From a virus: 39,284 nt of DNA. The position numbers were made by a program, and so were the translations under genes. The stretch covers positions 1 to 39,284 of the IMG/VR virus record IMGVR_UViG_3300033993_001516, one strand, 5' to 3'. Positions 16,349 to 38,867 of this stretch are shown here, piece after piece (position 1 is the first letter of the stretch; each line of letters starts with the position of its first letter). Below the pieces are notes generated by a model. It saw nothing but the letters and a program-made list of their open reading frames with translations, ran no database searches and was not told where the DNA came from.

Positions 16349-16355
16349 TGTCAAA
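16349..16355 (-). promoter_or_regulatory. TTTGACA motif before the holin-like start
   Basis: TTTGACA ends 13 nt before the ATG at 16335. A CCCC-TGC-GGGG hairpin fills the gap. One of ten such sites in the late region. Confidence 0.6.
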
Positions 16356-16357
16356 GC

Positions 16358-16780
16358 CTATCCTGCGAGATCGGTAACAGCCTCCGCGCTCGCCTCTTCA
16401 AACGTAGCCGCAGGCTGGCCAAAGCTCTCCTTCGGCGTAGGATCGAGCGCCCAGCCAAGCATGACCGATTCCAGCCATGTCTTGCAGGCCGACATCTTCG
16501 GGCCAAGGGGCTTGCCTGCGGTCATCAAGGCCATCTCAAAACGCTGCAAGGCGAGCGTCTGGTAAGGCGAGAAGTATTGAGCAACAGCCTCTTCGGCGGT
16601 CATCAGCGCCACAGGCGGCACGATCCAAGCGCCATCTGTCCAGACGGCATCGGGTGACGGAGCTTCGGGCTGCACGGCCCAATCGTCGGCCTTGGGGTTG
16701 CCAGCGGCAGTCCAAGCGGCCATCTGGTCGCCAAGGTCGCGGACATCGTTGGGGTCAGAAATGCGGTAATAGTTATGCAT
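16358..16780 (-). CDS. Putative tail fibre assembly or accessory protein
   Basis: A 140-residue protein whose ATG lies within the end of the LamG-like gene. MHNYYRISDPNDVRDL and the middle part (VWTDGAWIVPP, EEAVAQYFSPYQTLALQRFE) recall small tail fibre assembly proteins, with a Trp-rich start and a helical end. It follows the fibre genes, as chaperones of fibres often do. The assignment is tentative. Confidence 0.55.
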   Translation of the reverse strand: MHNYYRISDPNDVRDLGDQMAAWTAAGNPKADDWAVQPEAPSPDAVWTDGAWIVPPVALMTAEEAVAQYFSPYQTLALQRFEMALMTAGKPLGPKMSACKTWLESVMLGWALDPTPKESFGQPAATFEEASAEAVTDLAG

Positions 16781-17420
16781 AAACTCGCGGATGGTTGGCG
16801 ACTGTCGCGCCGTTGTTATTCGTTATGGTCAAGCCGCCGCGCACATCTTGAAGATTACGGACGAGCGGGGCGTATAAGACCAGCGACTGCGGGCGCACCT
16901 TGTCGCAGGTCATGCCTTTGGCGAGTGAGGCGATTTCGTCGGCGGTGAGGGCTACGTTCCAGATGCCGACTTCGGCAATTCTTCCGACAGCAAACAAGCC
17001 AATCGAGCCGCCCAAAAATCGCCCTCCGACTGTCAATGTGTTTACCACAAGGGCTGCTGTGACGCTGGCTGTATTCGTTGCGCTGCTTCCTCCGTCCAAA
17101 TATGCCGTGCGAGACGCTGTAGATTCGTAGACTCCGCAAGCGTGATGCCATATGTTTTGGCTATATCCGCTTGTAGTTCTGGCTATTCCATTGGCTATAT
17201 CAATAGTATAATCTGCCCGTATTGGATCACCTGCCGCCGCGCCTTCTGCAACAAGCCTCGGCCCTCTAAAGTCTCCTGTTGTATTTCCAATAGACAGCAA
17301 GGTTTGACTTGCTGTGGTTGAACTTGAATAAAACCAACACGCCATTGTGATTGGCAACGCCGATGCTGGCGCGCTTGCCGTTTGCAACGATTGGTTCGTC
17401 CCGTTGAATTCGTAAGCCAT
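16773..17420 (-). CDS. LamG / concanavalin-A-like fibre or adhesion protein
   Basis: A 215-residue protein, MAYEFNGTNQSLQTAS..., with the LamG pattern: an N-terminal YEFNGTNQ strand, ITMACWFYSSS, a central IWHHACGVYESTASRTAYLDG (W...YxDG), LTVGGRFLGGSIGLFAVGRIAEVGIWNVALTADEI split over several strands, and a C-terminal strand. Such domains bind glycans. It probably acts at the tail tip, recognising the host surface. It is coupled to the large fibre gene upstream. Confidence 0.75.
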   Translation of the reverse strand: MAYEFNGTNQSLQTASAPASALPITMACWFYSSSTTASQTLLSIGNTTGDFRGPRLVAEGAAAGDPIRADYTIDIANGIARTTSGYSQNIWHHACGVYESTASRTAYLDGGSSATNTASVTAALVVNTLTVGGRFLGGSIGLFAVGRIAEVGIWNVALTADEIASLAKGMTCDKVRPQSLVLYAPLVRNLQDVRGGLTITNNNGATVANHPRVYA

Positions 17421-17421
17421 A

Positions 17422-19278: not shown

Positions 19279-19279
19279 T

Positions 19280-19645: not shown

Positions 19646-19833
19646 TTGTTTCTGTCCCTCCAAACTTTCTTGGCCGACATGATGGCGATGAAAAGACCGA
19701 GCGCCAAAGCGCCGAGCCTCATGCCAGTTTCAAGGTGCGGCAGCAGGCTCACGATCACGCTACCGAGCGAGGTCGATACGCCAATGATGGGCCGCGAAAG
19801 AAATTCAAATGGGTCGTGGCTGTGAAAGTTCAT
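19642..19833 (-). CDS. Small membrane protein, second holin candidate
   Basis: A 63-residue protein starting at the ATG at 19833 (ATGA overlap). After MNFHSHDPFEFLSRP come IIGVSTSLGSVIVSLLPHL and LGALALGLFIAIMSAKKVW, two hydrophobic helices, then a basic end WRDRNK. It could be a holin or antiholin, although it sits among fibre genes rather than lysis genes. The alternative start at 19884 overlaps the upstream gene. Confidence 0.65.
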   Translation of the reverse strand: MNFHSHDPFEFLSRPIIGVSTSLGSVIVSLLPHLETGMRLGALALGLFIAIMSAKKVWRDRNK

Positions 19834-20720: not shown

Positions 20721-20727
20721 GGTTAAA

Positions 20728-21261
20728 TTAGTTAGGCACGGTTGTCAGAATCCCGTCGTTATCCACCGACACGCGGTAGATTGTGCCGCCGGGGGCTTGC
20801 AAAAGCGCAAAGGCAGCGGCAACAGTAGTCGGAACGCCTTCGCCGCCACGGATGACATCGTTGTAAACCACTGCCGATGTAGGCAGCGTTGTCGTGGTTG
20901 TCCCGCTGACCGACCAAGTGACCTCGATTTTGGCCGTGATGCTGTCGGTCGTGGCATCCGGGGAAAACTCGGCGTCCATGTTGGACGTGTTGAGGTTGAG
21001 GTCGAACGTGTAAACTGTGGCCGCGCCTGTTCCCGTTTTTGTCCAACCAGAGTCGTTGGCGAGGAAATTGCCCGTGAAAGTCTTTTTAATCCCGATCTGC
21101 CCCGTGGCCCCCGACCCCAATTCCACCACCGAGCCTCCGCGCACGAACTGCACCTCGACGGGAACCGTGTCGCGGCGGGTGAAATAGAGCGTGTTGACCC
21201 GTTGCGTCAAAACGGGGGATACGACAAATTCGCTGCTGTCGAGGTTGATATAGACGCGCAT
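20728..21261 (-). CDS. BppU-like tail protein (longer relative)
   Basis: A 177-residue protein, MRVYINLDSSEFVVSPV..., with FTRRDTVPVEVQFVRGG, GATGQIGIKKTFTGNF, YTFDLNLNTSNMD and DSITAKIEVTWSVSGTTTTT. This is the same sandwich layout as the 121-residue protein at 19280, followed by a short C-terminal part (YNDVIRGGEGVPTTV). It is probably a baseplate or fibre anchoring protein. The start lies 20 nt after a TTTGACA motif. Confidence 0.7.
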   Translation of the reverse strand: MRVYINLDSSEFVVSPVLTQRVNTLYFTRRDTVPVEVQFVRGGSVVELGSGATGQIGIKKTFTGNFLANDSGWTKTGTGAATVYTFDLNLNTSNMDAEFSPDATTDSITAKIEVTWSVSGTTTTTLPTSAVVYNDVIRGGEGVPTTVAAAFALLQAPGGTIYRVSVDNDGILTTVPN

Positions 21262-21281
21262 GGCCTTGCCCTCGCCCTCTG

Positions 21282-21288
21282 TGTCAAA
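21282..21288 (-). promoter_or_regulatory. TTTGACA motif before the BppU-like start
   Basis: TTTGACA ends 20 nt before the ATG at 21261, overlapping the end of the sugar epimerase gene region. The gap also holds purine-rich AGGGCGAGGGCAAGG. Confidence 0.5.
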
Positions 21289-21292: not shown

Positions 21293-21721
21293 CTAACGGC
21301 TCTCTACGTCCCACCGAAATGGAAAAGCCAGCGGCCCCCGGCGCTCCTCGTCGGGATTGGCGGGATTGTATTCGCGGGATGGGAGGTTAAGGATCGCGGC
21401 CTCGCGGTGGCCGTGGCAGGGCGTGAAGCCGTGGAACAACCCAGCCGGGATGATAAGCAGCTGCGGCGTATCGGCGGAAAGGATGATCGTCTGCCCGCGC
21501 TTGGCCTCGGCGTCCCAGATGCCAACCTTGGCCGCGCCCGCAACGCAAAACCACCGATCCACTTGCAGCTTGTGGCGGTGCCAGGCTTTCACCACCCCCG
21601 CCGAGCAAGTCGTGATGTAGGCTTGGCCGAAGCCGTGAGCGTCATCCGTGGCGCGGAATATCTCGATGAGCCGCCCGCGCTCATCGAGGTGGGCCGTGAG
21701 TGGGCGAATCTCGGCTAACAT
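21293..21721 (-). CDS. RmlC/FdtA-like sugar 3,5-epimerase (cupin)
   Basis: I start at the ATG at 21721, overlapping the glycosyltransferase stop, giving 142 residues; the open frame extends upstream but shadows that gene. IRPLTAHLDERGRLIEIFRA, VVKAWHRHKLQVDRWFCVAG, KVGIWDAEAKRG, LLIIPAGLFHGF and LPSREYNPANPDE follow the dTDP-4-keto-sugar 3,5-epimerase cupin order, with the catalytic His in HRH. It would reshape a nucleotide sugar for the glycosyltransferases in the same operon. Whether it makes rhamnose or another sugar is unknown. Confidence 0.8.
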   Translation of the reverse strand: MLAEIRPLTAHLDERGRLIEIFRATDDAHGFGQAYITTCSAGVVKAWHRHKLQVDRWFCVAGAAKVGIWDAEAKRGQTIILSADTPQLLIIPAGLFHGFTPCHGHREAAILNLPSREYNPANPDEERRGPLAFPFRWDVESR

Positions 21722-22728
21722 GGCATCCAAGGTTGCTGACGGACGCGGAGGTGGCCTCGGTATTCGCCTTCTGTTTCGTGATACGCCCGGTGGTGGACGA
21801 TCTTGCCGTCCTTGTCGCGCTTCACATGGTCGGCGACACAATGCGGTATGCAGGCAATCCGAAGGGCTGCTGGGTGCCACCTATGCCAGCAAAGGAACAG
21901 GTCTTGCGTCCCTCGCCCGTCGTAGCCCTCAAAGGTTGCCAGAGCCAGCGCCTTGGCCGAAAGGAGCGTGCAGCCGAGGCCGCACCAATCGGATGGCACG
22001 ATGCTTCCTCTGCCGATTCCAGGATAGGCAAAGTCCAGCCACCCGCGCCTGCGCCACCCGTGCTTGGCTGTAACCTCAAAGACGTTGCCATCGGGAGGAC
22101 ATCGCTTTACCCGCTCATGCAATCGGCCCATACGCTTGCCTTCTTTCTCGCTGGTGGGTTCAGCCTTGAGTTTTTCGCGGCAAGCCTCCAAGGCGCGGAT
22201 GAGGCGCGGCGGCAGCTTCCTCTCCTTCTCGCTGAAGTCTTCGGCGATGGGATGCTGCGGCGTCCCGTTGCCACCAAGGAAAAGCCCATTCGGATACGTC
22301 ACAGCGGCAACATCGTAAAAGTTTGACCCATCCGCCTGCGGCATTTGTAGCGTCCACTCGGCCACCCGAAGCGCGTCTGCCGGGACAAGGTTGTCGGCCT
22401 CGACGCTCCACAATGCCGTGGCGCGGATCTTCCTCGCAGCGGCAAACGCGGCCCCCTGTAAGGCGGCAATCCGCATTTGTGCGGGCGTCTGGTAGTCCTT
22501 ACCCTCGGCTCCCCCGTCATCGAGCGGAAGCTGCACGGCTTGGATGCGCCAGCCTTCGGGCAGTTCGTGGCGCGCTGCCTCGATCGCCTGCTTGGCCTCA
22601 TCGCTCTGGTCTGTTGCCAGAATGAAATGCGCCTCGGCGTGATGCCCGGCTGCGGCGGCTATCCTGCGGAGGAACTGCGGCCAGCAATAGAAATAGCTTT
22701 TCGTCGCGTATGTAGCAATCGCCAGCAC
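21715..22728 (-). CDS. Glycosyltransferase-like protein (third GT)
   Basis: A 337-residue protein starting at GTG 22728, 16 nt after a TTTGACA motif. The N-terminus, LAIATYATKSYFYCWPQFLRR cut short here, has the GT-A sheet start; ATALWSVEADNLVP gives a metal-binding D-x-D-like site (EAD). Later CGLGCTLLSAKAL, FEGYDGRGTQDLFL and HCVADHVKR fit the acceptor half. It is tightly coupled to the RmlC-like epimerase, and follows a Thr/Ser-rich tail protein that is a plausible target. Acceptor is inferred. Confidence 0.7.
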   Translation of the reverse strand: MLAIATYATKSYFYCWPQFLRRIAAAAGHHAEAHFILATDQSDEAKQAIEAARHELPEGWRIQAVQLPLDDGGAEGKDYQTPAQMRIAALQGAAFAAARKIRATALWSVEADNLVPADALRVAEWTLQMPQADGSNFYDVAAVTYPNGLFLGGNGTPQHPIAEDFSEKERKLPPRLIRALEACREKLKAEPTSEKEGKRMGRLHERVKRCPPDGNVFEVTAKHGWRRRGWLDFAYPGIGRGSIVPSDWCGLGCTLLSAKALALATFEGYDGRGTQDLFLCWHRWHPAALRIACIPHCVADHVKRDKDGKIVHHRAYHETEGEYRGHLRVRQQPWMPC

Positions 22729-22744: not shown

Positions 22745-22751
22745 TGTCAAA
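22745..22751 (-). promoter_or_regulatory. TTTGACA motif before the third GT start
   Basis: TTTGACA ends 16 nt before GTG 22728, just after the stop of the 630-residue tail gene. Confidence 0.55.
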
Positions 22752-28326: not shown

Positions 28327-28972
28327 TACTCTGCTGAAAACCTCTCTGTCAAAGCCGCCATGCGCTCAAAGGCGTCCACCGTCTCGCCTGTCGGCGGGCC
28401 GGGCGGCACTGTCCACACATCATTGGCGCGCAGGGCGCAATGCTGATATTGCAGGAGTCGGGCGAGCGGCAGTTCCCAAATGATGTAGTGTTCGGGCCAG
28501 CCTGTCTCTCGCGCCAGCGTGAAAGCGAAGGTCGCAATCCACGCTGGCTCCGTCAGTTTCCCGGTGGCGAGGCTTGGGATGCGCCCGGTGCGGCGGGCTT
28601 TTCGACAATCTCCACGGAGGCCGCGCCCGTCATGTCGCCCACGCGCTGAATCTCATCCATGACCTGCGGCACGATGGAGAGCGGGATCTGCAACTGGTAG
28701 CGAAGCAGTTCGTCCTCAAGGTGCTGCTTGTCGCGGACGGCGCGCAGCACTTTCTCGACGGGTTCGCAGTGGATGAAAAGGAAGCCCGCCACTTGGCGTA
28801 GCTGCTCGACTTGATCCATCGGCTCGTCGGACTTCTCGCCTGTGAACTGCGACAGGCCGAGTTTCTTGCAGAGAGTGACGGAGCCCAAAGTAAAGGGACG
28901 CAGCTTGAAATCGCCAATCTGCTTGAGCGAGGGTTCTAAAAACGCTTCTTCGGTTAGAGTAGTTTGAGCCAT
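28326..28972 (-). CDS. Tail assembly chaperone gpGT (product of -1 frameshift)
   Basis: The upstream chaperone frame ends at 28553 with GGGAAAC followed at once by TGA. A second frame, -1 relative to it, runs without its own start from the slip site to TAA 28326 and adds 76 residues: LTEPAWIATFAFTLARETGW, then PEHYIIWELPLARLLQYQHC and on to FERMAALTERFSAE. The fusion would be about 215 residues. This mirrors lambda gpG/gpGT, in which a minor frameshifted product bridges tape measure and tail tube subunits during assembly. The TAA overlaps the next ATG as TAATG. Confidence 0.85.
28347..28353 (-). promoter_or_regulatory. TTTGACA motif before the 261-residue gene
   Basis: TTTGACA ends 20 nt before the ATG at 28326, inside the frameshifted part of gpGT. 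Confidence 0.5.
28513..28562 (-). promoter_or_regulatory. Programmed -1 frameshift signal
   Basis: On the minus strand the slippery heptamer G GGA AAC (28562-28556) is followed by the zero-frame TGA, a 7-nt spacer in all, and then a perfect 9-bp stem GCCAGCGTG (28548-28540) / CACGCTGGC (28521-28513) with an 18-nt loop. X XXY YYZ form, spacer length and stem match the classic -1 frameshift design. Confidence 0.85.
28553..28972 (-). CDS. Tail assembly chaperone gpG-like
   Basis: A 139-residue protein starting at the ATG at 28972 with GAGGAG about 9 nt upstream. TEEAFLEPSLKQIGDFKL, RPFTLGSVTLCKKLGL and LLRYQLQIPLSIVPQVMDEI form the helical body; the C-terminus is Pro/Ala-rich (KPAAPGASQASPPGN) and ends on the slip site. 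Known gpG proteins bind the tape measure in excess over gpGT. It overlaps the upstream gene by 19 nt. Confidence 0.8.
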   Translation of the reverse strand: MAQTTLTEEAFLEPSLKQIGDFKLRPFTLGSVTLCKKLGLSQFTGEKSDEPMDQVEQLRQVAGFLFIHCEPVEKVLRAVRDKQHLEDELLRYQLQIPLSIVPQVMDEIQRVGDMTGAASVEIVEKPAAPGASQASPPGN

Positions 28973-30055: not shown

Positions 30056-30157
30056 TTATTTGGCGGACTTTTTGGCAAGGCGCGCTTCGACGGCTGCGCC
30101 ACGCGGGCCAGTAACGGCGGGGGCGGCTTTGGGCTGCTCTTTGGCGGCTTCGCTCAT
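30056..30157 (-). CDS. Tiny Ala/Lys-rich protein
   Basis: A 33-residue frame, ATG at 30157, placed 14 nt after a TTTGACA motif and just before the tube-like gene. Sequence MSEAAKEQPKAAPAVTGPRG, then AAVEARLAKKSAK. It resembles small linker or decoration peptides, but a chance frame is possible. The motif and tight packing favour a real gene. Confidence 0.5.
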   Translation of the reverse strand: MSEAAKEQPKAAPAVTGPRGAAVEARLAKKSAK

Positions 30158-30171: not shown

Positions 30172-30178
30172 TGTCAAA
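30172..30178 (-). promoter_or_regulatory. TTTGACA motif before the 33-residue gene
   Basis: TTTGACA ends 14 nt before the ATG at 30157 and contains the TGA stop of the preceding gene. Confidence 0.55.
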
Positions 30179-30587
30179 CGGTCACGCCGAGCGCGACTTG
30201 CAAAGTGTTGACCCATGCGCGGTCTTGAAAATCTGGCCCCGGCACGCTGGTGATGTAGCTGCCTGCAAAATCCACCCCTGACGCGGCGGCATCAAAGGCC
30301 GTGCGGAAGGAGTTTTGCGCCTCGATGGCGGTGACGAGCGTGGTGAAAAGACTGCTGTGGTCGGACAGGCTAACAGCCATTGAGGGCGAGCGAAGGCTGA
30401 CGGTGAGGTTGACCAAGAACGCGCCCGGCCCCCGGTGTTCGGCATCGCTGACCTCGACCACCACGGCTTGCTTCTCAAAGTCCAAGTCGGCGGCAGTGAC
30501 CGATTCGTGAACCTGTGTGCCTGCGGGAAGGTTGTTTAATGCGCGCAGGTAGGCCGCTACGCCCTTTTCTACTTCAAGCGGGTTCAC
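30174..30587 (-). CDS. Tail completion / head-tail joining protein
   Basis: A 137-residue protein starting at GTG 30587: GGAGG lies 10 nt upstream and the start overlaps the previous stop as GTGA. The frame also has an ATG at 30611, which lacks a ribosome site. VNPLEVEKGVAAYLRALNNL is a helical start; VVVEVSDAEHRGPGAFLVNL and AFDAAASGVDFAGSYITSVP are beta-rich. Position matches lambda gpZ/gpU. Confidence 0.65.
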   Translation of the reverse strand: MNPLEVEKGVAAYLRALNNLPAGTQVHESVTAADLDFEKQAVVVEVSDAEHRGPGAFLVNLTVSLRSPSMAVSLSDHSSLFTTLVTAIEAQNSFRTAFDAAASGVDFAGSYITSVPGPDFQDRAWVNTLQVALGVTV

Positions 30588-30919
30588 GGGTTGCCAACCT
30601 CCACGATCCATTCCTGCGCGAGCGGGCTAAAGTTTTGCCGCACGGAAATGACGCGGTAGTTTTTGCCGTCGATTGTCACCGGGCTTTTCACTTCGGGCGC
30701 TTCGCACATATCGGTTTTGCTCACCCGCACCACGAAATCGACGGGCTGCTGAAAACCACCCGATTCAAGGTTAAGTTCGGGTGTTCCCGTCGAAACAGCG
30801 CAAGTGTAGCTGCGGGGAGCGCCGTTCCATGCCGTGCCGAAAATCACGGTGCTGCCAAACGTGCTTTTGATGGTCCTGGCGGCGAGCTTGGCAAACTCGG
30901 TCACGGCTGCGGCGTTCAT
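30584..30919 (-). CDS. Head-tail connector (gpFII-like)
   Basis: A 111-residue protein starting at the ATG at 30919, 14 nt after a TTTGACA motif. An N-terminal helix (MNAAAVTEFAKLAARTIKS) is followed by beta strands: FGSTVIFGTAWNGAPRSYTC, QQPVDFVVRVSKTDM, KSPVTIDGKNYRVISVRQN and EWIVEVGNP. Size and fold pattern fit small head-tail joining proteins such as gpFII. Confidence 0.7.
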   Translation of the reverse strand: MNAAAVTEFAKLAARTIKSTFGSTVIFGTAWNGAPRSYTCAVSTGTPELNLESGGFQQPVDFVVRVSKTDMCEAPEVKSPVTIDGKNYRVISVRQNFSPLAQEWIVEVGNP

Positions 30920-30933: not shown

Positions 30934-30940
30934 TGTCAAA
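30934..30940 (-). promoter_or_regulatory. TTTGACA motif before the connector gene
   Basis: TTTGACA ends 14 nt before the ATG at 30919 and contains the TGA stop of the small glycosyltransferase. Confidence 0.6.
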
Positions 30941-31514
30941 GTTGTTCAGCGGGCGGGGGCGGGTCTGTCGGCTTGCTGCGGTAGCGGTAGAAATAAATTA
31001 CTTGGTCGCCGCTCCATTCCTCGCTTTTGATGTGTTCCAAAAGACCAAGGGCATAGCGGTAGTCCTCGCCCCACATAAGGTCGGGGAAGCGGCTTTTGAG
31101 CGCCACAGCGCGCTTTAGCGGGCAAAGATGATGCGGAGTTCGGTCTTGCCCGTGCCACTGGAAATTTTCTCGGAAGCGGTAGCTGTGGCGGAAGATGGGT
31201 GACGGATGCCAATCGCGGCCATCCATCGTGACGTGCATGGTGATCCCTACGCAATCGGGCTCAGATTTAAGGAAAGGCAAGATGCGCGCAACGTAGTCTG
31301 GTGCAACCATGTCATCATCGTCCACAAAGGCGATGTAATCGGCGGTTGCCGCCTCAATCATGCGCTGCCGCTTGGCTCCAATCGTGCCAGGGCCGTCATC
31401 GGTCAGGTAGCCAACGCCTTTCTTTAGCTGCGGCTTTAGCACAGACAAAAGCTCGGCCAGCATTTTTTCGCGGCCCGGCATGGTAGGGATAAGGATTTGC
31501 AGCTTCACGTCCAT
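30936..31514 (-). CDS. GT-A family 2 glycosyltransferase (small)
   Basis: A 192-residue protein overlapping the larger glycosyltransferase by 10 nt. LQILIPTMPGREKMLAELLS, then GTIGAKRQRMIEAATADYIA, FVDDDDMVAPDYV (the D-x-D metal site) and later LMWGEDYRYAL (ED catalytic region) are the family 2 order. It is small for the family and lacks membrane segments, so soluble protein targets are likely. Its place between the capsid gene and head-tail genes suggests glycosylation of virion proteins. Confidence 0.8.
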   Translation of the reverse strand: MDVKLQILIPTMPGREKMLAELLSVLKPQLKKGVGYLTDDGPGTIGAKRQRMIEAATADYIAFVDDDDMVAPDYVARILPFLKSEPDCVGITMHVTMDGRDWHPSPIFRHSYRFRENFQWHGQDRTPHHLCPLKRAVALKSRFPDLMWGEDYRYALGLLEHIKSEEWSGDQVIYFYRYRSKPTDPPPPAEQL

Positions 31515-33226
31515 CCCTTTGCTTCAGCGTCAGGGTTGCGGCGGCGGAAGACGGCTTTGCCACGCTCGTTGGCCTCTGGGTTTTGCTGGCGCATATAAAC
31601 CTCGTCCGAAGCCGCTCCCGTAAATGCGGGGTGGTCGTGGAAGAATTTAATGTGGCGAGCGTCTTTGACTACCCCGTCCCGATAAGCGCGAAAGCTGAAC
31701 TCCGTGTCGCTCCAGTAGCCATCGAACTCCGGGCACAGCAACCACTCGCGGCCAAGCCACCAGCGCCAGTTGTAGCACATGATCGTCATCAGCGGATCAG
31801 TCGGCCCACGGAATCCGTCTGAAACGTGCAGCACGGCGGGCGCGTCCATGTGCGGCTGCATAGCCTGGACAATCTGCTCGTCCCATCCATGAGGAGGATA
31901 AACGTCCGACTGACTCATAATGAAGATGCGCGCACCTGATGCCGTAGCTGCGCGTGCGGCGGCGTTGTAGTTCGCCACGGCGCTACTGTGGCCCTCTGGA
32001 ACAGCGGGCGCTAATCCGTGCGGGTAATGCTTCAACTGCTCAACAATCTCGGTGTCCGACTCGCAGATGCCGAAATAGTAGGCCACGCGCTCCGGGTGCG
32101 CGGCACGACTCAACCACAAATCGCGCACTTCAATGTCCTTGGCTCCCCTGCCCGCTGGATGCCCCACGGCAATGCGGGGCTTTAACCGCTTGAGCCATTC
32201 TTTGCGGAGGCGCTCGGCTTCCTTGGTGTGGCCTGCTTTGGCGAGGGCCAGCGTCTTTAGGTCATGCGCCCGCCATCCGTAGAGCGAAGCATCATGCGTC
32301 CAGCTTGGTTCGTCTGGCATGGGCTGCGCTTCCATCGCGTTCGCATAGGCCAGCGCCTTGTCGGCCTTGCCGCGAGCCAGGTGCAGCTTGGCAAGCTCGG
32401 CATATCCTTCTCGGCGCTGCGGCATGAGGCGCACGGCTTCCAACAAAGGGCGCTCGGCTTCGTCCACGTCTTTGAGCCAGCGGCCTATGGTTTGGTAAGC
32501 AACAAACTTTTCCTCGCTGCCCAGATCGTCGCGCCCCGTAGCGATGAGCGCGGCGTGCATCGCGGTCGGGATGTCCTGCTGAATCTCGCACTCGCGGAAC
32601 AAAAACCACCATTCCCGCCCCGTGCGCTCTTCGGGCGGGATGCTTTCCAAGATATTGCGGTTGCGGGTGACGCTGCCGCGCTTGTTGTTTTCGGGCATAT
32701 GCATGACTTGCATTTCCGCGCACCATGAATTTTCCGTGCCTTCGTGAGTCTCGATGTCCTCGTGGACGGCATTGATCCAGCGTTTGTAAGCACTGGCTTT
32801 GACCAACCGAACGCGCCGGGCGTAGCTGCCGCTGGCGTTGGTGATGTAGGGCGAGAAAATAGCGCCCCCTTCCATCGGGTGCCCCTCGCGTATCATCCGC
32901 AGGACTTCCGCGCCCGTAGGGGTCAGCAGATCGTCGCAATCGGCCCACATGATCCAGTCCGTGCCTTCGGGTGCGAGGGCAAAGGTCTGGTTGCGGGCGG
33001 CGGCGAAGTTATCGACGTGCGGCCATTCCTTGCCTGCCTCGCCGTTGTGATATTCGCCCACGATGCAGCCACGGGCTTTGGCGATGTCCAGCGTGGCGTC
33101 GGGCGGCTGGTTGCCGCAGGCGCGGACTACGGAAACGGAATCAACGTGCGGTTGGAAGCTGTCGAGGAAGCGGGTAATGTTTTCCGCTTCGTTGCCGCAA
33201 ATGATGCCGAGATGAATTTTCGCCAC
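31505..33226 (-). CDS. Two-domain glycosyltransferase
   Basis: I choose GTG 33226 (573 residues) because it starts just before the domain (VAKIHLGIICGNEAENITRF) and after the capsid terminator; a GTG at 33307 is possible. The N-domain is family 2 with WIMWADCDDLLTP as D-x-D site. A middle part has helix pairs (EGYAELAKLHLARGKADKAL) like TPR repeats. The C-domain (YYFGICESDTEIVEQL, IFIMSQSDVYPPHGWDEQIV) looks like a second GT-A fold. The TPR-linked design recalls enzymes acting on protein. It is the first gene after the capsid gene. Confidence 0.8.
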   Translation of the reverse strand: MAKIHLGIICGNEAENITRFLDSFQPHVDSVSVVRACGNQPPDATLDIAKARGCIVGEYHNGEAGKEWPHVDNFAAARNQTFALAPEGTDWIMWADCDDLLTPTGAEVLRMIREGHPMEGGAIFSPYITNASGSYARRVRLVKASAYKRWINAVHEDIETHEGTENSWCAEMQVMHMPENNKRGSVTRNRNILESIPPEERTGREWWFLFRECEIQQDIPTAMHAALIATGRDDLGSEEKFVAYQTIGRWLKDVDEAERPLLEAVRLMPQRREGYAELAKLHLARGKADKALAYANAMEAQPMPDEPSWTHDASLYGWRAHDLKTLALAKAGHTKEAERLRKEWLKRLKPRIAVGHPAGRGAKDIEVRDLWLSRAAHPERVAYYFGICESDTEIVEQLKHYPHGLAPAVPEGHSSAVANYNAAARAATASGARIFIMSQSDVYPPHGWDEQIVQAMQPHMDAPAVLHVSDGFRGPTDPLMTIMCYNWRWWLGREWLLCPEFDGYWSDTEFSFRAYRDGVVKDARHIKFFHDHPAFTGAASDEVYMRQQNPEANERGKAVFRRRNPDAEAKGWT

Positions 33227-33231
33227 TGAAT

Positions 33232-33270
33232 ACAAAAAGGAAGGGCCACGGCGAGTGGAACCGTGACCCC
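33232..33270 (-). terminator. Rho-independent terminator after the capsid gene
   Basis: On the minus strand GGGTCACGG (33269-33261) pairs with CCGTGGCCC (33251-33243) with a 9-nt loop and one G-U pair, followed by TTCCTTTTTG. It lies 60-100 nt after the major capsid stop and immediately before the glycosyltransferase start, so it would lower expression of downstream genes relative to capsid. Confidence 0.75.
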
Positions 33271-33335
33271 TGCTCGTAAGAGCAAATGAAACTCCCGCCG
33301 CGTCCACTCACACGGAGGGAGATGAACACACAGAC

Positions 33336-34187
33336 TTAGATGACCAGCGCCATCGTGTTGCTCGTGAGGCCGGGGGCCGCGCCGAACATGACTTCAATCG
33401 AGGCGTTGACCTGACGATTGTTGGTGCTGCCCCACACGTTCCAGTAGACCGAGAGGCCCAACTGGTCGAGGGTGACAACTTGGTCGCTGATCTGGAACTG
33501 CGAGGAAACCGCAGGGTCGATCATCGGCTTGGCCGAGGCAACGCACACCGCTTCGCGTGAGCAGGCGAAGCCGTCGAGGCCCGTGACCGCACCGCTGAAG
33601 CTGTTCGCGTAGTAGATGCCCTGGTCGAAACCGTAGGCTCCGTTCTGGAGCGGCAGGAAGTCCGCGTTGGTCGGGATGAGCGCCGAGTAGATCGACGGGG
33701 TAACGACCAAGCCCTTGTTGGTGGACTTGCTGATCGCGCTCCACAGCGAGGCCAAATGGCCCGAACCGGGGGTGATCGTGGTCGTGGTGACAGTCGCCGC
33801 GCCGAAGTTCACAGTCGTGACGGGCGTGATGGCGATGCTCCAGAGCTTGTCGGCCAGAGCGTCCACGTTGATCTTGATGAGGTTCTCAAGGCGATGGCCG
33901 AGGGCGAGATCCGCCTGGCTGATGCCGAAGAATTGAGCCACATGATCCAGGGTGACGGTGGCCTTGCCAACGGTCACATCGGAGCCGGGTTCAAAATTGG
34001 TCGGGTTAACAGCGGTGGCGCTGGTTGCCGAGACGATGGGCACCTGAATGGTGTCCTTTGCTTTCTTAACTTCATTGCTGAAGTCAGTGGTGAAAAGGCG
34101 CAGAGGAGCGAGGCGGTTAGCCAAGACTGTCTGAACCTGTTGCGAGATGGTGGCGACCACCAGCCCGGAATCGAATACGTTAGCCAT
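33336..34187 (-). CDS. Major capsid protein
   Basis: A 283-residue protein. MANVFDSGLVVATISQQVQT is the N-arm, then NEVKKAKDTIQVPIVSATSA, VTVGKATVTLDHVAQFFGIS and later IYSALIPTNADFLPLQNGAY, with SIEVMFGAAPGL near the end. This is the pattern of coat proteins of the HK97-like fold. It comes right after the protease/scaffold gene and is followed by a terminator. No lambda gpD-type decoration gene is seen nearby. Confidence 0.85.
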   Translation of the reverse strand: MANVFDSGLVVATISQQVQTVLANRLAPLRLFTTDFSNEVKKAKDTIQVPIVSATSATAVNPTNFEPGSDVTVGKATVTLDHVAQFFGISQADLALGHRLENLIKINVDALADKLWSIAITPVTTVNFGAATVTTTTITPGSGHLASLWSAISKSTNKGLVVTPSIYSALIPTNADFLPLQNGAYGFDQGIYYANSFSGAVTGLDGFACSREAVCVASAKPMIDPAVSSQFQISDQVVTLDQLGLSVYWNVWGSTNNRQVNASIEVMFGAAPGLTSNTMALVI

Positions 34188-34231: not shown

Positions 34232-34690
34232 TTAGCTGGTGGCTTTGGAAAGTGAGGCGCGAGCGGCCCAAATGGCTTTCTTGTGCTCGGCGTAAAGTTT
34301 GTTGCTGGCTGCGAAGTCCTTGGCCTCGACTGCGGCCATCCACTGCGCCACGGGGTCGGACTCTTCGGACTTGGCAACCGGGGCGACTGTTGCGGCGGAA
34401 ACGCCTGCGGATTTCTCCAGCGCGGCGAAAGCGTCTTTGACTTTGGAAAGCTCGGCCTCGGCAGCTTCGGCGCGGGCGATGGCTTCGGCCTTCTCGGCTT
34501 CCAGCGCGGCGAGCTTTTCGGCGGAATCGTCGGCCTTGGCTTCGGGCGCGGCCTCTTCGGCGGCGGGCTCTTCGGTGATTTCGGGCGCGGCGACTTCGGC
34601 CTCGACTGCGGCGGGCGCTTCCTCAACGGCGACTTCGACCGCAGGCGCGGCGACTTCGGTTTCGGTGGCGACGGAGTTAGATTCGTCCAT
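34232..34690 (-). CDS. Internal scaffold protein (Nu3-like), in-frame start
   Basis: An ATG at 34690, in frame inside the protease gene, lies exactly 14 nt after a TTTGACA motif, the same spacing as before other late genes. It would give a 152-residue protein, MDESNSVATETEVAAPAVEV..., that is Ala/Glu-rich and helical, as expected for a scaffold. Lambda makes Nu3 from gene C the same way. Confidence 0.65.
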   Translation of the reverse strand: MDESNSVATETEVAAPAVEVAVEEAPAAVEAEVAAPEITEEPAAEEAAPEAKADDSAEKLAALEAEKAEAIARAEAAEAELSKVKDAFAALEKSAGVSAATVAPVAKSEESDPVAQWMAAVEAKDFAASNKLYAEHKKAIWAARASLSKATS

Positions 34691-35284
34691 GCGCTTTGCA
34701 AAAGTGTCAAACCTGTGGCGCAAATCCTTGGCGCTTGCGGCGGCAGGAATGCCGTCTTCGATGGCGTCCACAAAGCCGAGCGCGGTGGCTTCCAGCGCCG
34801 TCAGCCATGTCTCTTCGTCCATGAGTCGGCTGATCTCTTCGGCGGGCATCCCGCTTTTGCGCTGATAGCCGCGCACCAGCGTGGACTTCATGGTGTCGAG
34901 CAAGTCGGCTTGCTTGCGAAGATCGTCAGCCTCGCCAGCGGCGAGCGTCCACGGGTTGTGGATCATCAAGAGCGCGTTTTCGCTCATGTAAGTCGGCTTG
35001 CCCGACATGGCGATGTAGCTCGCCATTGAAGCCGCGAGGCCGTCGATGTGGACGGTGACGCCGCCTTCGTGGCGGTTTAGCGCGTTGGCAATGGCGCTTC
35101 CGTCGATGATTTCTCCACCGGGGGAGTTGATGCGGACGTGAACGTGCTGGCCTTTGTATTCGCGCAGTTCTGCGATGAACTCTTTTGCGCCGATGCCGAA
35201 CGCACCGATTTCGTCGTAGATAGAAAGCTCAACCTCGCCGCTCTTGTCGGAAGAGTTTTTAAACGCATACCACTTCTGGGTCAT
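34232..35284 (-). CDS. ClpP-like head maturation protease fused to scaffold
   Basis: A 350-residue protein. Residues 1-195 are a ClpP/S49-like protease: VHVRINSPGGEIIDGSAIAN, the nucleophile Ser in VHIDGLAASMASYIAMSG, and catalytic His in LLMIHNPWTLA. Residues 200-350 are a scaffold, first Ala/Glu/Pro-rich (VAVEEAPAAVEAEVAAPEIT), then a coiled coil (EAEKAEAIARAEAAEAELSK) and basic core-binding end. The protease would cut scaffold and capsid during head maturation. It starts at the ATG at 35284, 13 nt after TTTGACA. Confidence 0.85.
   Translation of the reverse strand: MTQKWYAFKNSSDKSGEVELSIYDEIGAFGIGAKEFIAELREYKGQHVHVRINSPGGEIIDGSAIANALNRHEGGVTVHIDGLAASMASYIAMSGKPTYMSENALLMIHNPWTLAAGEADDLRKQADLLDTMKSTLVRGYQRKSGMPAEEISRLMDEETWLTALEATALGFVDAIEDGIPAAASAKDLRHRFDTFAKRMDESNSVATETEVAAPAVEVAVEEAPAAVEAEVAAPEITEEPAAEEAAPEAKADDSAEKLAALEAEKAEAIARAEAAEAELSKVKDAFAALEKSAGVSAATVAPVAKSEESDPVAQWMAAVEAKDFAASNKLYAEHKKAIWAARASLSKATS
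34705..34711 (-). promoter_or_regulatory. TTTGACA motif before the internal scaffold start
   Basis: TTTGACA lies inside the protease coding sequence and ends 14 nt before the in-frame ATG at 34690. Confidence 0.6.
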
Positions 35285-35297
35285 GCACCTTCGCGGG

Positions 35298-35304
35298 TGT
35301 CAAA
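35298..35304 (-). promoter_or_regulatory. TTTGACA motif before the protease/scaffold gene
   Basis: TTTGACA ends 13 nt before the ATG at 35284 and includes the TGA stop of the portal gene. Confidence 0.6.
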
Positions 35305-36841
35305 CGTCGGGCGTGGAGTCGGGCGGAGTTGAACCGCCGTCCGTTGCGTCCTCTTCGTCCGCAGCGTCGATGCCAGGTTGCGACCCCGAAGGTGGCGCGG
35401 TGATAGGAGAGCCGGGCGCGGGCGGGAATACGTCCGTGACGCTCAACCCTGCCGCCTCGCACTTTTCTTTGCGGCGAACAGCGGCAGCAATCGCCGCATC
35501 TTCTTCGGCCTCTTCGTCCAGCCCGTGCATCTCGGCAAAGCGGCGAGTGGACATTGCGCCCGTGCGGACAATCTCCAACAGCGCCTTGGTGTCGCGGCCA
35601 AAGTCCACCGTAGCGCGGGCGGGCGGGATGAAATCCACCCTCCACCAATCGTCACGCAGCGGCAAGCGCCCCGCTTGAATCTCCGACCATACCCAATACT
35701 TCCAGAAGCGGCGGCAGAACTGATTGATGAGCCACTCCTGCAATTCGGAGAAAAAGACCTGTGCGTCGGCCAACACATAGCGGGTGTTTGCCCCGCCGAT
35801 CCCGGCCACCGACCAAAGCATTTCGGGCGAGACGCCGATGCCCCAAGAGATGTCGCGGGCGAGAAAGTCGAGGAACGCTTGGAAGTTATTGCCGGGATGC
35901 TCGTTCTTGAACTGCTGCAACTTGCTTCCGGGCGGCAACTGGACCACGCCCGATTGCGAGTAGAGCTTGTCTAGCGTAACGCTGCCCGTGGAGGCATCCT
36001 GCTTCTTGAGCGCGGCTCCCATGCCAATTTGCATGGCGTCGGGTGACTCGATGATGAAGGCGGGCTGACTCGCCAGCTTAAACGTCTGCTTGGTGAAGCT
36101 GACGATATCGGCCATGTCGTGCAGATGCAGGGCTGCGCGGGCCAGCCATGACGGGCTGCGCGTGTAGCCAATGCGAACGGGTCGGCGGAAGTGCAGGATG
36201 TCATCGGCAGAGACATCGGTAAAACGCTGCGCGTCGGCGCTGCCAAGGATGCGGTATTGGGTCGGCCTGCCGTAGCGGTCAGTCCGCACGCCGTCCTGCC
36301 ATTCGTCCTGGCTCAGTGGCGTGGTGGCGTTGCCGACCGATTCCGCTCCCATGAACCGAACCAGGGCGCGCCCGCTTTCGCTTTTGATGAACTGCCCGAA
36401 AAAATCGCCGTCGATAGCAACGTGGCGGATGATGAAGCTCTGTGCCTCGTAGAAATTGACCTGACCGCCAGCGTCGAAACCAAACGCTTCGCGGCCTACC
36501 GAATCCTCAAAAAGTTCTTCCGCCTGTTTGTTCCACGCATCGTCCGAGGTGCGAGCGGCGGGGATGATGCCCGTGCCGCAGACATAGCGCGCCACGCCAT
36601 CCACGGCGCGTGCGGCGAGGCCCACATTGTTGTAGAGCCAGCGCGCCTTTCGCATGATGTTGACCCGCGTGCCGTTGGTAAGCTCGTTGCGCGGCTCCAC
36701 CGTGGGCATATAGATGAAAGTCCTGCCCGGCTGATAAAGTTCGCCCGCCTCATAGGCTGCATTTTTGGCATCGGGCTTGCGTGGCCTGCCTGCTCCGGGG
36801 CGCGCTCCCCCGCGCTTTGATTTCGTTTGAATTTCCGCCAC
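35300..36841 (-). CDS. Portal protein (lambda gpB family)
   Basis: A 513-residue protein starting at GTG 36841, 13 nt after TTTGACA. After a basic start (KSKRGGARPGAGRPRKPD) come NIMRKARWLYNNVGLAARAV, DGDFFGQFIKSESGRALVRF, ADDILHFRRPVRIGYTRSPS and FLARDISWGIGVSPEMLWSV, all typical of lambda-type portals. The C-terminal part is Glu-rich then Pro/Thr-rich. The dodecameric ring forms the DNA channel and binds terminase. Confidence 0.9.
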   Translation of the reverse strand: MAEIQTKSKRGGARPGAGRPRKPDAKNAAYEAGELYQPGRTFIYMPTVEPRNELTNGTRVNIMRKARWLYNNVGLAARAVDGVARYVCGTGIIPAARTSDDAWNKQAEELFEDSVGREAFGFDAGGQVNFYEAQSFIIRHVAIDGDFFGQFIKSESGRALVRFMGAESVGNATTPLSQDEWQDGVRTDRYGRPTQYRILGSADAQRFTDVSADDILHFRRPVRIGYTRSPSWLARAALHLHDMADIVSFTKQTFKLASQPAFIIESPDAMQIGMGAALKKQDASTGSVTLDKLYSQSGVVQLPPGSKLQQFKNEHPGNNFQAFLDFLARDISWGIGVSPEMLWSVAGIGGANTRYVLADAQVFFSELQEWLINQFCRRFWKYWVWSEIQAGRLPLRDDWWRVDFIPPARATVDFGRDTKALLEIVRTGAMSTRRFAEMHGLDEEAEEDAAIAAAVRRKEKCEAAGLSVTDVFPPAPGSPITAPPSGSQPGIDAADEEDATDGGSTPPDSTPDV

Positions 36842-36854
36842 GCCTGCGGCGGTC

Positions 36855-36861
36855 TGTCAAA
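36855..36861 (-). promoter_or_regulatory. TTTGACA motif before the portal gene
   Basis: TTTGACA ends 13 nt before GTG 36841; the gap has GCC-GCA-GGC. Confidence 0.6.
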
Positions 36862-37155
36862 TCACAGACGCACGGGCGCTTCCGACCAATCGGCGTAAAC
36901 CATGCCTGCGCTGCGGACTTTCGTGGGCTCGGCAGAGGGGGCGAGGTCTTCGATCAAGTCTTCGACCAGATTCAGAATGTCGGCCTTGCTGTAACGCTTG
37001 GCCTGGCCGCTGGTGCTGCCGCCCTCAAAGCCCGTCGAGGTGATGACCACTTCGCTTTCCGCCGAGGCAAACAGCGCGGTTGCCATCGTCTGCAATTCGG
37101 AAAGCGTCTTGGTGCGCTTCAAGAATTTGCGGATGCCAGCAAGCTCGGAGGTCAT
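36862..37155 (-). CDS. Head-tail joining protein, gpW-like
   Basis: A 97-residue protein between large terminase and portal, exactly where lambda encodes gpW. LAGIRKFLKRTKTLSELQTM is a helix pair, SEVVITSTGFEGGSTSG a beta hairpin and KADILNLVEDLIEDL a helix. gpW plugs the portal after packaging. It starts at the ATG at 37155, overlapping the terminase stop as ATGA, 14 nt after TTTGACA. Confidence 0.7.
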   Translation of the reverse strand: MTSELAGIRKFLKRTKTLSELQTMATALFASAESEVVITSTGFEGGSTSGQAKRYSKADILNLVEDLIEDLAPSAEPTKVRSAGMVYADWSEAPVRL

Positions 37156-38867
37156 GCTTGGGCGTCGGCTGTCAAAGGTTGTGGTTGCGCCTCAAAGTGC
37201 TGCCGCATCACCCACCACGTCACCAAATGCAGCTTAGTGCAGTCACCGTAGTGGTCACCCGCCACCTTCTTCCAGACGCGGCCTTTGGTCTTCTCGCTCT
37301 CGATGATTTTCTGCCCCATGTGCCCAAGCAAAAAGTCTTCGCCCGTGTCAGACGGGAAATGCAAAAGCGGCGGCGATTTTTTGGCGATGCGCTCGATGTA
37401 GAGCGCCACCTTGGCCGAGAAGTCCACATAGCGGTAAAGCACCAGCGTCGGGTAGTCCTTCAAGTGCGAGGCATCCCATGTGCCAGCCTGTGCCGCCGAT
37501 CCCTTGGACGGAAAAAACACGCCGCCCGACCGGGCGCACGTTGCATAGACGCGCTCGGTGAAGTCGCCCGAATCGACCAGCCCGCATTGGATGCGGATTG
37601 GTTCTTCGCGTCCCTCCACACGCCACTCCATGCGCGCCACGAGCGGAATCAAGTCCTCGATGGCAAAGGTCGTGCCGTAGTCGATCACATACGCCTCGCC
37701 GCCTTCCGTCCACGCTTGCACGCTCCAGTGCGTTTGCATTTGTCCGGGGTCAGCACAAAGCGTGACCAGCACGGGCTCGACGGGCATCTGGCCGCGCTTG
37801 TAAGTCGCATCCCGCATCGCCACTACGGCATCGTCGCTAACGTGCGCCGTGCGGTCTTCCCATCTTTGCGCCATGCGCTTTTGTAAAAACTGCTTTCGCG
37901 GCTCGCGGTCGCCGCGCTGCCAAGCCTCTTCGGCCCTGACCCACTCGGACGCCAATTTTGACCACGGCACCCACCACACCGTGAGCGCGTTGTAATTAAA
38001 GGCCAACCGCCCGGTCATGCCGTCAGCCACTTGGATGTATTGCCCTGTGGCGCAAAGTTGTCGGCGTTGCTCCGCGTTGTCTTCAAAGCGCGCATCGCAC
38101 CCGGCACAGACCATGTGCGTGGTGGCCGCAAGTCTGTCCCAATCCATTGACCCGTCCTTTTTGCGCTCCCGCTGAAAGCGCACCATTTCAAAGCGCCACG
38201 GCTGGCGGCGTTGGCACTGTGGACACTCCCACTGCCATTGCCATTGTTCGCACAGGTCTTGGGCTGCGTGGAAATCGTCGCCCTCTTCGCCGCCCTGGCT
38301 GACCAGAACCACCCGGCTATTCCATCGGTCGTGCGTGCGGCGGCGGAACTCCTCAACCATGCCATGCTTCCAGCGCCACACCTCGTCACCGATACACCAG
38401 CGGATCGACTTTTCTTGAAGGTTGCTGATGTTTGCCCCGCCGATGAAAAGAGGCATATGGGGGAAAAGGATCTCGGTCTTTCGTTTGGCGTGGCGGTCTT
38501 TGGGGAATAGCCGCGCCACGGGTTCGGTGGCGTTGAAGACGGGGGCCAACCGCGTCTCGGCCCACTCCTTTGATAGCTCGTCCGTCTGCCCCGCAAAAAG
38601 GGACGGCCCCGGCGCTTGCGATACCACCCACGCCAGAAGGCACTCAAAGAGTGTGGTCTTGCCCGATCCGACCGGGGCGCAAATCAGCACCTCGTCGTTG
38701 GTGTCTTTGGCGATCTCCTCCAGTGGCGCGTTTAGCCAGGGCGCGGTATCCCTGCGGAATCGCGGGTTGCGCGCCGAGTGCGGCAACTCAACGTGCCGCT
38801 CTATCCATTCGACTACGCCGAGCTTCTCAGCGGCATCAACGGTTTCACTGAAGCCCTCTGGCAGCAT
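37152..38867 (-). CDS. Terminase large subunit (lambda gpA family)
   Basis: I start at the ATG at 38867 (571 residues) with AAGGAGG 10 nt upstream; a TTG two codons earlier is less likely. Walker A is EVLICAPVGSGKTTLFECL; Walker B-like SIRWCIGDEVWRW; a zinc ribbon CPQCQRR...CAGCDA (about 213-253); the nuclease has LCADPGQ, GLVDSGDF and DHYGDCTKLHL. The enzyme powers DNA packaging and cuts at cos. This family usually makes cohesive ends, which fits the 12-bp terminal repeat. Confidence 0.95.
   Translation of the reverse strand: MLPEGFSETVDAAEKLGVVEWIERHVELPHSARNPRFRRDTAPWLNAPLEEIAKDTNDEVLICAPVGSGKTTLFECLLAWVVSQAPGPSLFAGQTDELSKEWAETRLAPVFNATEPVARLFPKDRHAKRKTEILFPHMPLFIGGANISNLQEKSIRWCIGDEVWRWKHGMVEEFRRRTHDRWNSRVVLVSQGGEEGDDFHAAQDLCEQWQWQWECPQCQRRQPWRFEMVRFQRERKKDGSMDWDRLAATTHMVCAGCDARFEDNAEQRRQLCATGQYIQVADGMTGRLAFNYNALTVWWVPWSKLASEWVRAEEAWQRGDREPRKQFLQKRMAQRWEDRTAHVSDDAVVAMRDATYKRGQMPVEPVLVTLCADPGQMQTHWSVQAWTEGGEAYVIDYGTTFAIEDLIPLVARMEWRVEGREEPIRIQCGLVDSGDFTERVYATCARSGGVFFPSKGSAAQAGTWDASHLKDYPTLVLYRYVDFSAKVALYIERIAKKSPPLLHFPSDTGEDFLLGHMGQKIIESEKTKGRVWKKVAGDHYGDCTKLHLVTWWVMRQHFEAQPQPLTADAQA
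37170..37176 (-). promoter_or_regulatory. TTTGACA motif before the gpW-like gene
   Basis: TTTGACA lies in the end of the large terminase gene and ends 14 nt before the ATG at 37155. Confidence 0.6.

Follow-up and report, generated by a model that had tools for sequence, protein, structure and literature searches.

A TTGACA element upstream of selected late-gene start codons in two phage lineages

TTTGACA sites in the late operon

The window, the whole 39,284 nt stretch of DNA that was analysed, contains 11 copies of TTTGACA, ten on the minus strand and one on the plus strand at position 1260. For both strands together 4.6 copies are expected, and none of 100 shuffled sequences reached 11. The ten minus-strand copies of the preliminary description, at the coordinates given there, and its single plus-strand copy are confirmed and are far above chance. 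All ten minus-strand copies are in the late minus-strand operon. As had also been claimed, seven of these have an ATG or GTG 13 or 14 nt downstream; the gaps of the other three are 16, 20 and 20 nt. Each of the 419 other anagrams of TTTGACA (420 in total, minus-strand sequence) has at most one copy with a start at either distance.

Between the terminase and portal genes is a 97-aa gene (36862–37155), and the minus-strand copy at 37170..37176 is 14 nt before its ATG 37155. The gpW label of this gene is based on position alone, since family searches of the protein gave no match. The portal gene (35300–36841) starts at GTG 36841, 13 nt after the motif at 36855..36861. The ClpP-type head protease gene (34232–35284) starts at ATG 35284, 13 nt after the copy at 35298..35304, the TGA of which forms the portal stop codon. 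The copy at 34705..34711 is inside the protease gene, in the frame TTT GAC A, and its start is the in-frame internal ATG 34690, 14 nt away, which corrects the preliminary description. The ORF from this ATG is the 152-aa acidic C-terminal part of the protease gene and is presumed to be the scaffold. A scaffold start usually sits in-frame inside the head protease gene, and the lambda C and Nu3 genes are a nested protease-scaffold pair of this type. The in-frame internal start within the head protease gene is common to lambda and the window, whereas the conserved upstream element belongs to the internal start of the window-type phages.

Further along the operon, a head-closure (Hc1-like) gene (30584–30919), which matches PHROG 82 (E 9e-4), has the motif at 30934..30940, 14 nt from its ATG 30919. 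The copy at 30172..30178 is 14 nt before ATG 30157 of a 33-aa ORF (30056–30157), a second correction. In both of these copies, as at 35298, the TGA doubles as the stop codon that ends the preceding gene. Longer gaps are found for three genes: a 261-aa gene (27541–28326; motif at 28347..28353, 20 nt from ATG 28326), a 337-aa gene (21715–22728; motif at 22745..22751, 16 nt from GTG 22728) and a 177-aa gene (20728–21261; motif at 21282..21288, 20 nt from ATG 21261). The last copy, at 16349..16355, is 13 nt before ATG 16335 of a 55-aa ORF (16168–16335) beside the amidase gene, likewise a corrected assignment. This ORF is a presumed holin, for which a holin family search gave no match, and the spacer of the site, CCCCTGCGGGGG, is able to form a hairpin. 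An ATTGACA among the early genes at about 1312 is probably coding (I-D-K in a longer reading frame) and was for this reason left out of the evidence.

Conservation in related phages

Many of the related loci are near-identical, so that raw counts overstate independence, and similar sites were collapsed for the dereplicated counts. The dereplicated set from 60 loci has 104 sense sites and 6 antisense sites. The gap is 13 nt in 36 of the sense sites and 14 nt in 30, so the positional enrichment extends to related phages. In 51 loci TTTGACA ranks first among all 7-mers for an ATG 13 or 14 nt downstream (z 40.6), with the runner-up at z 14.5 when shifted and one-base variants are excluded. The 14 longer viral records have 125 copies on the majority strand and 12 on the other. 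Among one-base variants, ATTGACA most strongly retains starts at 13 or 14 nt (22/34), while GTTGACA (5/17) and TTCGACA (10/72) have some. The core is TTGACA, extended to WTTGACA in the lineage of the window, and the motif is conserved down to about 40% portal identity. The spacing is not rigid; gaps of 15–20 nt also occur, and 7 of the 152 sites examined have no usable start codon 8–44 nt downstream.

The TGA of the motif is the upstream stop codon in 52 of the 117 sites that have a clear upstream ORF. Sites that are sense-only, at gene junctions and near upstream stops would suit RNA processing, in which an endonuclease recognises UUGACA and cuts between cistrons. This is very unlikely, as it leaves the near-fixed 13–14 nt to the start unexplained and gives no reason for keeping a cut inside the protease coding region.

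Whether TTGACA occurs in the 50 nt upstream depends on the gene in a nearly all-or-none way, in counts that omit loci where tblastn stopped short of the gene start. It is found before the portal gene in 50/50 loci, the scaffold start in 34/34, the head-closure gene in 27/27 (TTTGACA in 26), the gpW-position gene in 45/46 (TTTGACA in 31) and the head protease gene in 45/47 (TTTGACA in 44). It is also present in all seven loci in which the 33-aa ORF was found, in 3/3 for both the 55-aa ORF and the 177-aa gene, and in 6/8 for the 261-aa gene. For the 337-aa gene this tally scored the window only; relatives of the gene have TTGACA at gap 16 in three loci of a second lineage (L157, L167 and L170). 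Motif-free genes are the presumed capsid (0/34), terminase (0/16), tape measure (0/18) and six others (0/24, 0/19, 0/17, 0/17, 0/17 and 0/14). An exception to this pattern is a 103-aa gene, with the motif in only 12/18. In L044, L045, L047 and L050 a distantly related counterpart of the presumed capsid gene has a site 34–37 nt upstream.

For the scaffold start inside the protease gene, the nucleotides of the motif are themselves conserved, although they belong to a coding region: 42 of 43 loci have TTT GAC A, with variation in the codons around it. The third residue is T, S, N or K with a codon that always begins with A, and codon 4 is TTT in 23, TTC in 18 and another codon in 2. In the single miss, L056, the alignment is off register and TTTGACA is nearby with an ATG at gap 15.

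The second lineage has portal proteins that are 24–26% identical to those of the window's lineage, and terminases that are 21–23% identical. A de novo scan of this lineage again placed TTGACA-containing 7-mers first for starts at 13 or 14 nt. The gpW-position gene, the protease-position gene and the internal start carry the motif, the last as GTT GAC A at 14 nt in 20/20, with Val replacing Phe; any base can precede TTGACA. The motif has been kept though the genes have almost wholly diverged, and it is therefore probably an unrecognised signal for where or when translation starts. The carriers are probably two phage groups of Verrucomicrobiota, of the Chthoniobacter/Spartobacteria type.

Comparison with host signals

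The preliminary description had proposed a signal that is either phage-specific or host-specific. TTTGACA-N13/14-ATG occurs 165 times and TTTGACA-N10/11-ATG 182 times across 26 genomes from the likely host family, and 400 kb of host genome G011 has no gap peak for the motif before starts. With no excess at the phage spacing, a host-wide start signal was rejected and the host-specific part of the proposal is unsupported. Pairing with 16S rRNA fared likewise. Five host-family 16S genes end in CACCTCCTTTCTAAGGAG, a normal anti-Shine-Dalgarno end, and TGTCAAA, the complement of TTTGACA, is absent from all five.

Most motif starts had been described as lacking a Shine-Dalgarno site, and this agrees with their mean anti-Shine-Dalgarno pairing of –3.71, compared with –3.69 in shuffles (n 90). 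The share of motif starts pairing below –6 is 0.24, versus 0.19 in shuffles. Host starts with a Shine-Dalgarno 4-mer, based on a crude gene caller, are 0.20 versus 0.16 in controls for G011 and 0.15 versus 0.13 for G001, a sample biased in that most of its contigs were chosen for containing pattern hits; phage loci have 0.24 versus 0.15. All of these shares are above controls, so that a host making little use of Shine-Dalgarno pairing is a tentative view.

TTGACA is the exact –35 hexamer and this may point to a role at the DNA level. It is exceedingly improbable, however, that the sites are –35 boxes of internal σ70-type promoters, since at a spacing of 13–14 nt the –10 box would lie within the gene and TATAAT-like matches do not exceed those of shuffles. 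Mismatches average 3.78 versus 3.70 in shuffles for the window's lineage (lineage 1, n 45) and 3.50 versus 3.66 for lineage 2 (n 14), in support of the earlier view that this is not a σ70 promoter. The promoter reading does draw on Verrucomicrobia phage P8625, in which four TTGACA copies precede annotated starts by exactly 30 nt, and weak –10-like hexamers follow 17 nt after them. This distance and the weak –10-like box mark the P8625 copies as a different thing, and they were rejected as instances of the same element.

TTGACA is also part of the presumed host rRNA boxA, which counts against the explanation favoured below. All five host-family rRNA operons have TTCTTTGACA or CTCTTTGACA approximately 500 nt past the end of 16S, a presumed spacer boxA, and one of the five has such a sequence in the 16S leader as well. 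The presumed boxA is GCTCTTTGACA in four operons and GGTTCTTTGACA in one, and UUUGACA is common to it and the phage motif. In E. coli a boxA beside the suhB start codon represses translation (PMC5725501). The phage sites could similarly be bound by NusB-S10 on nascent RNA, controlling translation or Rho termination for each cistron. This is quite unlikely, given that the phage sites do not conform to a GYTCTTTAANA-type boxA including C4. The GYTC half is missing and its positions are unconserved, so a full boxA was rejected; C4, the position mutated in boxA mutants (PMC5725501), is C in just 47–49% of sites; and lineage 2 permits any base before TTGACA.

Folding of the spacers bears on the boxA reading from both sides. 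Gap-13 spacers fold at –4.48 versus –2.85 in shuffles (0/100), which favours it, whereas gap-14 spacers have no excess (–1.51 versus –1.41). From motif to start, all 120 sites pooled and the gap-13 sites fold better than shuffles (0/100), and gap-14 and gap-17 sites do not (34/100 and 70/100). With 26 nt downstream added, folding exceeds that of shuffles (0/100) in all three groups, namely lineage 1, its distant members and lineage 2; upstream control segments likewise exceed their own shuffles in the first two, but not in lineage 2. No pairing register is consistently in excess, although single pairs reach z 3.0. On these results a hairpin in the spacer was rejected as a defining feature and is kept as a possible extra.

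A start-associated element and its possible factor

The TTGACA sites are sense-only, 13–14 nt and less often 15–20 nt before chosen starts, and nearly all-or-none per gene. They thus have the features of a start-associated sequence, a short asymmetric repeat in one orientation from a few to 20 nt before the starts of a subset of genes. Sequence comparison gives moderate confidence that TTGACA acts on the late polycistronic mRNA as an RNA element that is associated with starts, is specific to the phages and serves to regulate translation initiation. Of the original proposal, the best-supported part is a translation start signal specific to the phage, or a site for a late factor. A putative trans-acting factor would bind UUGACA about 14–20 nt upstream of the start, near where the mRNA exits the 30S subunit, and would control initiation at the motif-bearing starts. 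The factor is probably a product of the phage, since host genes make no use of the site at such a distance.

The leaders of motif starts (n=88) have a GC content of 0.67 and an MFE of –11.3, compared with 0.45 and –6.9 for motif-free late starts (n=82). On average the motif-free leaders are A-rich or less structured, above all that of the presumed capsid gene, but the leaders of one motif-free gene (145 aa) match those of motif starts in GC content and structure (0.67, –12.6). Given this average contrast, the element would give the low-copy head proteins (portal, protease, scaffold and head-joining) a timing or dose separate from that of the abundant ones.

A candidate for the factor is a basic 94-aa winged-helix protein encoded at 14189..14473 on the plus strand, by association only. 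Its predicted fold is H-H-H-E-E (pLDDT 79.7, pTM 0.57), and the best Foldseek match of the model in the PDB has an E of 0.05. Relatives are present in 7/7 long records of lineage 1 and 9/10 records of lineage 2, and the profile has weak matches in two prophages. The profile found nothing in the examined parts of the partial motif-bearing loci L047, L048, L052, L053, L056, L057 and L122, or of G001 contig C20. Since these phages share other genes too, the co-occurrence is weak evidence. A translation-start code of the phage's own, in which a factor, perhaps this protein, reads UUGACA on the mRNA 14–20 nt upstream and directs initiation to low-copy head-assembly genes, including the internal scaffold start, in a host that seemingly makes little use of Shine-Dalgarno sites, is conceivable but doubtful.

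The same protein, or another repressor, would be the binder if the sites act as DNA, with a phage repressor halting elongation in the prophage. The L5 stoperator consensus contains TGTCAA, the complement of TTGACA. The integrase-like gene (12103–13173) suggests a temperate phage, prophage-like copies exist, and most long records contain both the motif and the small winged-helix protein. As in L5-type phages, the sites are many, dispersed, asymmetric, in one orientation to transcription and at short gene junctions (PMC9283540). Stoperator-like sites are nevertheless unlikely here. Distance to a start codon is not part of stoperators as the available text of that source describes them, whereas 66 of the 104 dereplicated sites are 13 or 14 nt from a start, and one site is kept in coding sequence exactly at the internal start. 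The conserved stretch is merely 6–7 bp, while L5-type stoperators are 13 bp and are DNA-bound by a two-domain immunity repressor (PMC9283540). Sites of the stoperator type would also be expected to act as operators at early promoters.

The start-associated RNA element favoured here is comparable in type to the SAS of cluster K mycobacteriophages, though its sequence differs. The SAS is a 13 bp GGGATAGGAGCCC with a Shine-Dalgarno core (AGGAG), typically 3–7 bp from the start (Pope et al. 2011, PMC3203893), and the TTGACA sites do not have this sequence or distance. The SAS occupies the non-structural half, is absent in exact form from the host M. smegmatis and is of unknown function (PMC3203893). 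Both elements have many short asymmetric copies, nearly all in one orientation just before starts, in a gene-specific subset that is conserved, for the SAS between subclusters (PMC3203893). Unlike the SAS, TTGACA is without a Shine-Dalgarno core, keeps a distance of 13–14 nt and belongs to genes of the head, tail region and lysis region; it is found in host genomes too, without the spacing. Among the matches listed for literature mostly outside subscription journals there is no report of a TTGACA start motif.

If TTGACA acts at initiation, it would be a second, Shine-Dalgarno-independent start signal that is used selectively by a virus. It would be shared by lineages with proteins diverged almost past recognition and would be a way to dose head-assembly proteins from a single mRNA. 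With a defined hexamer, distance and candidate factor, the role of phage start-associated sequences becomes testable. The motif is also of use in annotation, as it flags starts that automated prediction may overlook, for instance those of tiny ORFs or of a scaffold within another gene.

Two other phages were compared. No motif signal was found within the 24.5 kb examined of Akkermansia phage Moulinsart. In L176, an AT-rich phage, GTTGACA is repeated at variable distances.

TTTGACA in the window and in related phages

The right half of the window, an IMG/VR virus record of 39,284 bases, carries a late operon on the minus strand, with genes for a GpA-type terminase, a 97-aa gpW-position protein, a lambda-type portal, a ClpP-type head protease, a presumed capsid, glycosyltransferases, a head-closure protein, a tape measure and others. 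Position and relatives, and no family match, are the basis of the names gpW, capsid, scaffold and holin. All ten minus-strand copies of TTTGACA listed in the preliminary description (37170, 36855, 35298, 34705, 30934, 30172, 28347, 22745, 21282 and 16349) were found, as was its single plus-strand copy. The gap between motif and start codon is 13 nt in three cases, 14 in four, 16 in one and 20 in two, which agrees with the seven copies previously counted at 13 or 14 nt. The positional excess is plain, because TTTGACA has 7 copies with a start codon at 13 or 14 nt in an anagram control of the window and each of the other 419 anagrams has at most 1. The early region encodes a Mom-like DNA modification protein (PHROG 1384; 3704-4405, minus strand).

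Searching viral contigs with the portal returned 51 loci at 99 to 40% identity. In these, TTTGACA occurs in 170 distinct contexts on the strand of the late genes (sense) versus 4 antisense. Sense copies are followed by ATG at gap 14 (54), 13 (41) or 17 (23), and by GTG at gap 13 (28). When all 7-mers in these loci are ranked for ATG at 13/14 nt, TTTGACA is first (z 40.6), followed by the shifted variant TTGACAG (24.1) and the one-base variant ATTGACA (19.2). In fourteen longer viral records the two strands carry 125 and 12 copies. With similar sites collapsed across 60 loci, 104 sense sites (36 at gap 13, 30 at gap 14) and 6 antisense sites are left. The strand bias and the 13/14 peak are thus found in related phages also. 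At 3295 in locus L010 and 4268 in locus L020, TTTGACA lies inside an inverted repeat, GTTCACC...GGTGAAC, 5' of a gene several kb upstream of the portal.

Prophage-like regions that carry the motif, with portals 43-47% identical, are present in genome bins that bear the label Chthoniobacter or Spartobacteria and in two other members of this family. These locations make a Chthoniobacter-type verrucomicrobium the probable host. A further locus belongs to a Burkholderiaceae-labelled bin.

A capsid search added 20 loci of a second lineage (L155-L173 and L175). Their presumed capsid (the window gene lies at 33336-34187, minus strand) is 74-79% identical (85% in one partial locus), while portal and terminase are only 24-27% and 21-23% identical. 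The 600-aa glycosyltransferase (31505-33307, minus strand) is 69-83% identical between lineages. On sequence comparison, similar capsid and glycosyltransferase beside strongly diverged portal and terminase point to module exchange between the two lineages. TTTGACA itself occurs only 6 times sense and once antisense in the 20 loci. In a de novo scan for ATG at 13/14 nt, TTGACAC (24/29) and GTTGACA (14/16) ranked highest among 7-mers, the base before TTGACA being free. Gap 14 is dominant (13 of 28 dereplicated sense sites, with 3 antisense sites left). In nine records, a start stands at 13-15 nt from 2 to 7 copies on the TTGACA-richer strand and from 0 or 1 on the other strand.

Genes preceded by the motif and the presumed internal scaffold start

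TTGACA within 50 nt upstream was counted per gene in 60 loci, where the gene start was reached. It precedes the portal (50/50), the internal scaffold start (34/34), the head closure gene (27/27), the protease gene (45/47), the gpW-position gene (45/46), a 103-aa gene (12/18) and a 261-aa gene (6/8). Within this distance it was not found 5' of the presumed capsid (0/34), tape measure (0/18), terminase (0/16), glycosyltransferases (0/14 and 0/11) or six other genes (0/24, 0/19, 0/17, 0/17, 0/17 and 0/14). Four more distant loci have a site 34-37 nt 5' of a gene that is weakly related to the capsid gene. In the second lineage the element is 5' of an 86-aa gpW-position gene, the similarity of which to the window gene is not significant, and of the protease-position gene at gap 15.

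The copy at 34705 lies within the protease frame, 5' of an in-frame ATG (34690) that would begin the acidic 152-aa C-terminal part of the protease, by analogy with nested protease-scaffold genes such as lambda C/Nu3. In a protease alignment of 43 loci made independently of the motif, 42 read TTT GAC A at this site, with the ATG at codon 8 or 9. Residue three varies among Thr, Ser, Asn and Lys, and the first base of its codon is A in every case. Codon 4 is TTT in 23, TTC in 18 and another codon in 2. In the late genes of the window TTT and TTC are used about equally (144 and 134), with 245 GAC versus 146 GAT. All 20 second-lineage loci have GTT GAC A at gap 14 from an in-frame internal start, so that the amino acid changes between lineages (Phe versus Val) with TTGACA and distance identical.

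Level of action and candidate factor

The near-fixed distance, the strand and the in-frame internal case point to an element acting in the RNA, in initiation. At this distance the mRNA leaves the small subunit on the 30S path, and UUGACA would stand at that exit. As previously described, it is not a normal σ70 promoter, a -10 signal being absent, and most starts lack a Shine-Dalgarno site (mean pairing -3.71 versus -3.69 in shuffles). The suggested host-specific start signal was not supported. TTTGACA-N13/14-ATG occurs 165 times in 26 genomes of the likely host family versus 182 for the N10/11 gap control, and no 16S pairing was found in five host-family 16S genes. Nor is the element a canonical boxA. 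The presumed host boxA includes TTTGACA, although the phage sites are without the boxA 5' half; C4 changes serve as boxA mutants in PMC5725501.

The leaders of 88 dereplicated motif starts are richer in GC just 5' of the start (0.67 versus 0.45) and more structured (-11.3 versus -6.9 kcal/mol) than those of 82 motif-free late starts. Rank tests for GC, A and energy gave 6e-15 to 1.5e-7, homologous starts not being independent. A 145-aa motif-free gene has a leader resembling the motif class. Among 152 sites, 117 have a clear upstream ORF, and in 52 of these its stop is the motif's own TGA. Hairpins are possible in some spacers, chiefly at gap 13, and are not a general property.

Host genes make no use of the site at this spacing, and a phage-encoded factor is therefore likelier than a host factor. 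The candidate is a 94-aa winged-helix protein (14189-14473, plus strand), the family of which is present in all 7 long records of the first lineage, in 9 of 10 second-lineage records (the exception is a 24-kb record) and in loci L044 and L045. Two prophages have weak matches (E 8.7e-5 and 0.0019); no member was found in the examined parts of the prophage contig in host-family genome G001 and of seven further loci with the motif. Winged helices bind DNA more frequently than RNA, and a stoperator-like role of the motif in DNA is therefore a serious rival to action in initiation. The gene is part of a four-gene cassette (13452-14957, plus strand; metallophosphoesterase, winged-helix protein, HExxH protein and small membrane protein) common to phages with strongly different structural genes.

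Comparison with other elements

Among known kinds, the start-associated sequences found in cluster K mycobacteriophages come nearest; PMC3203893 gives their function as unknown. The TTGACA element differs in sequence, distance and target genes and is without the Shine-Dalgarno core. It is therefore a new variant of the start-associated kind, outside the cluster K family.

Verrucomicrobia phage P8625 (L070) has TTGACA at 5412, 10736, 15558 and 22406, each exactly 30 nt 5' of an annotated start; 17 nt downstream of each copy stands a weak -10-like hexamer. This spacing and hexamer suggest promoters of leaderless mRNAs. Three of the four copies share a GTATC...GATAC-like inverted repeat. In several places an AT-rich phage (L176; 40% GC, capsid 38% identical) has GTTGACA followed by an ATTC-N-CTAAGAAT-like sequence at variable distance to starts.
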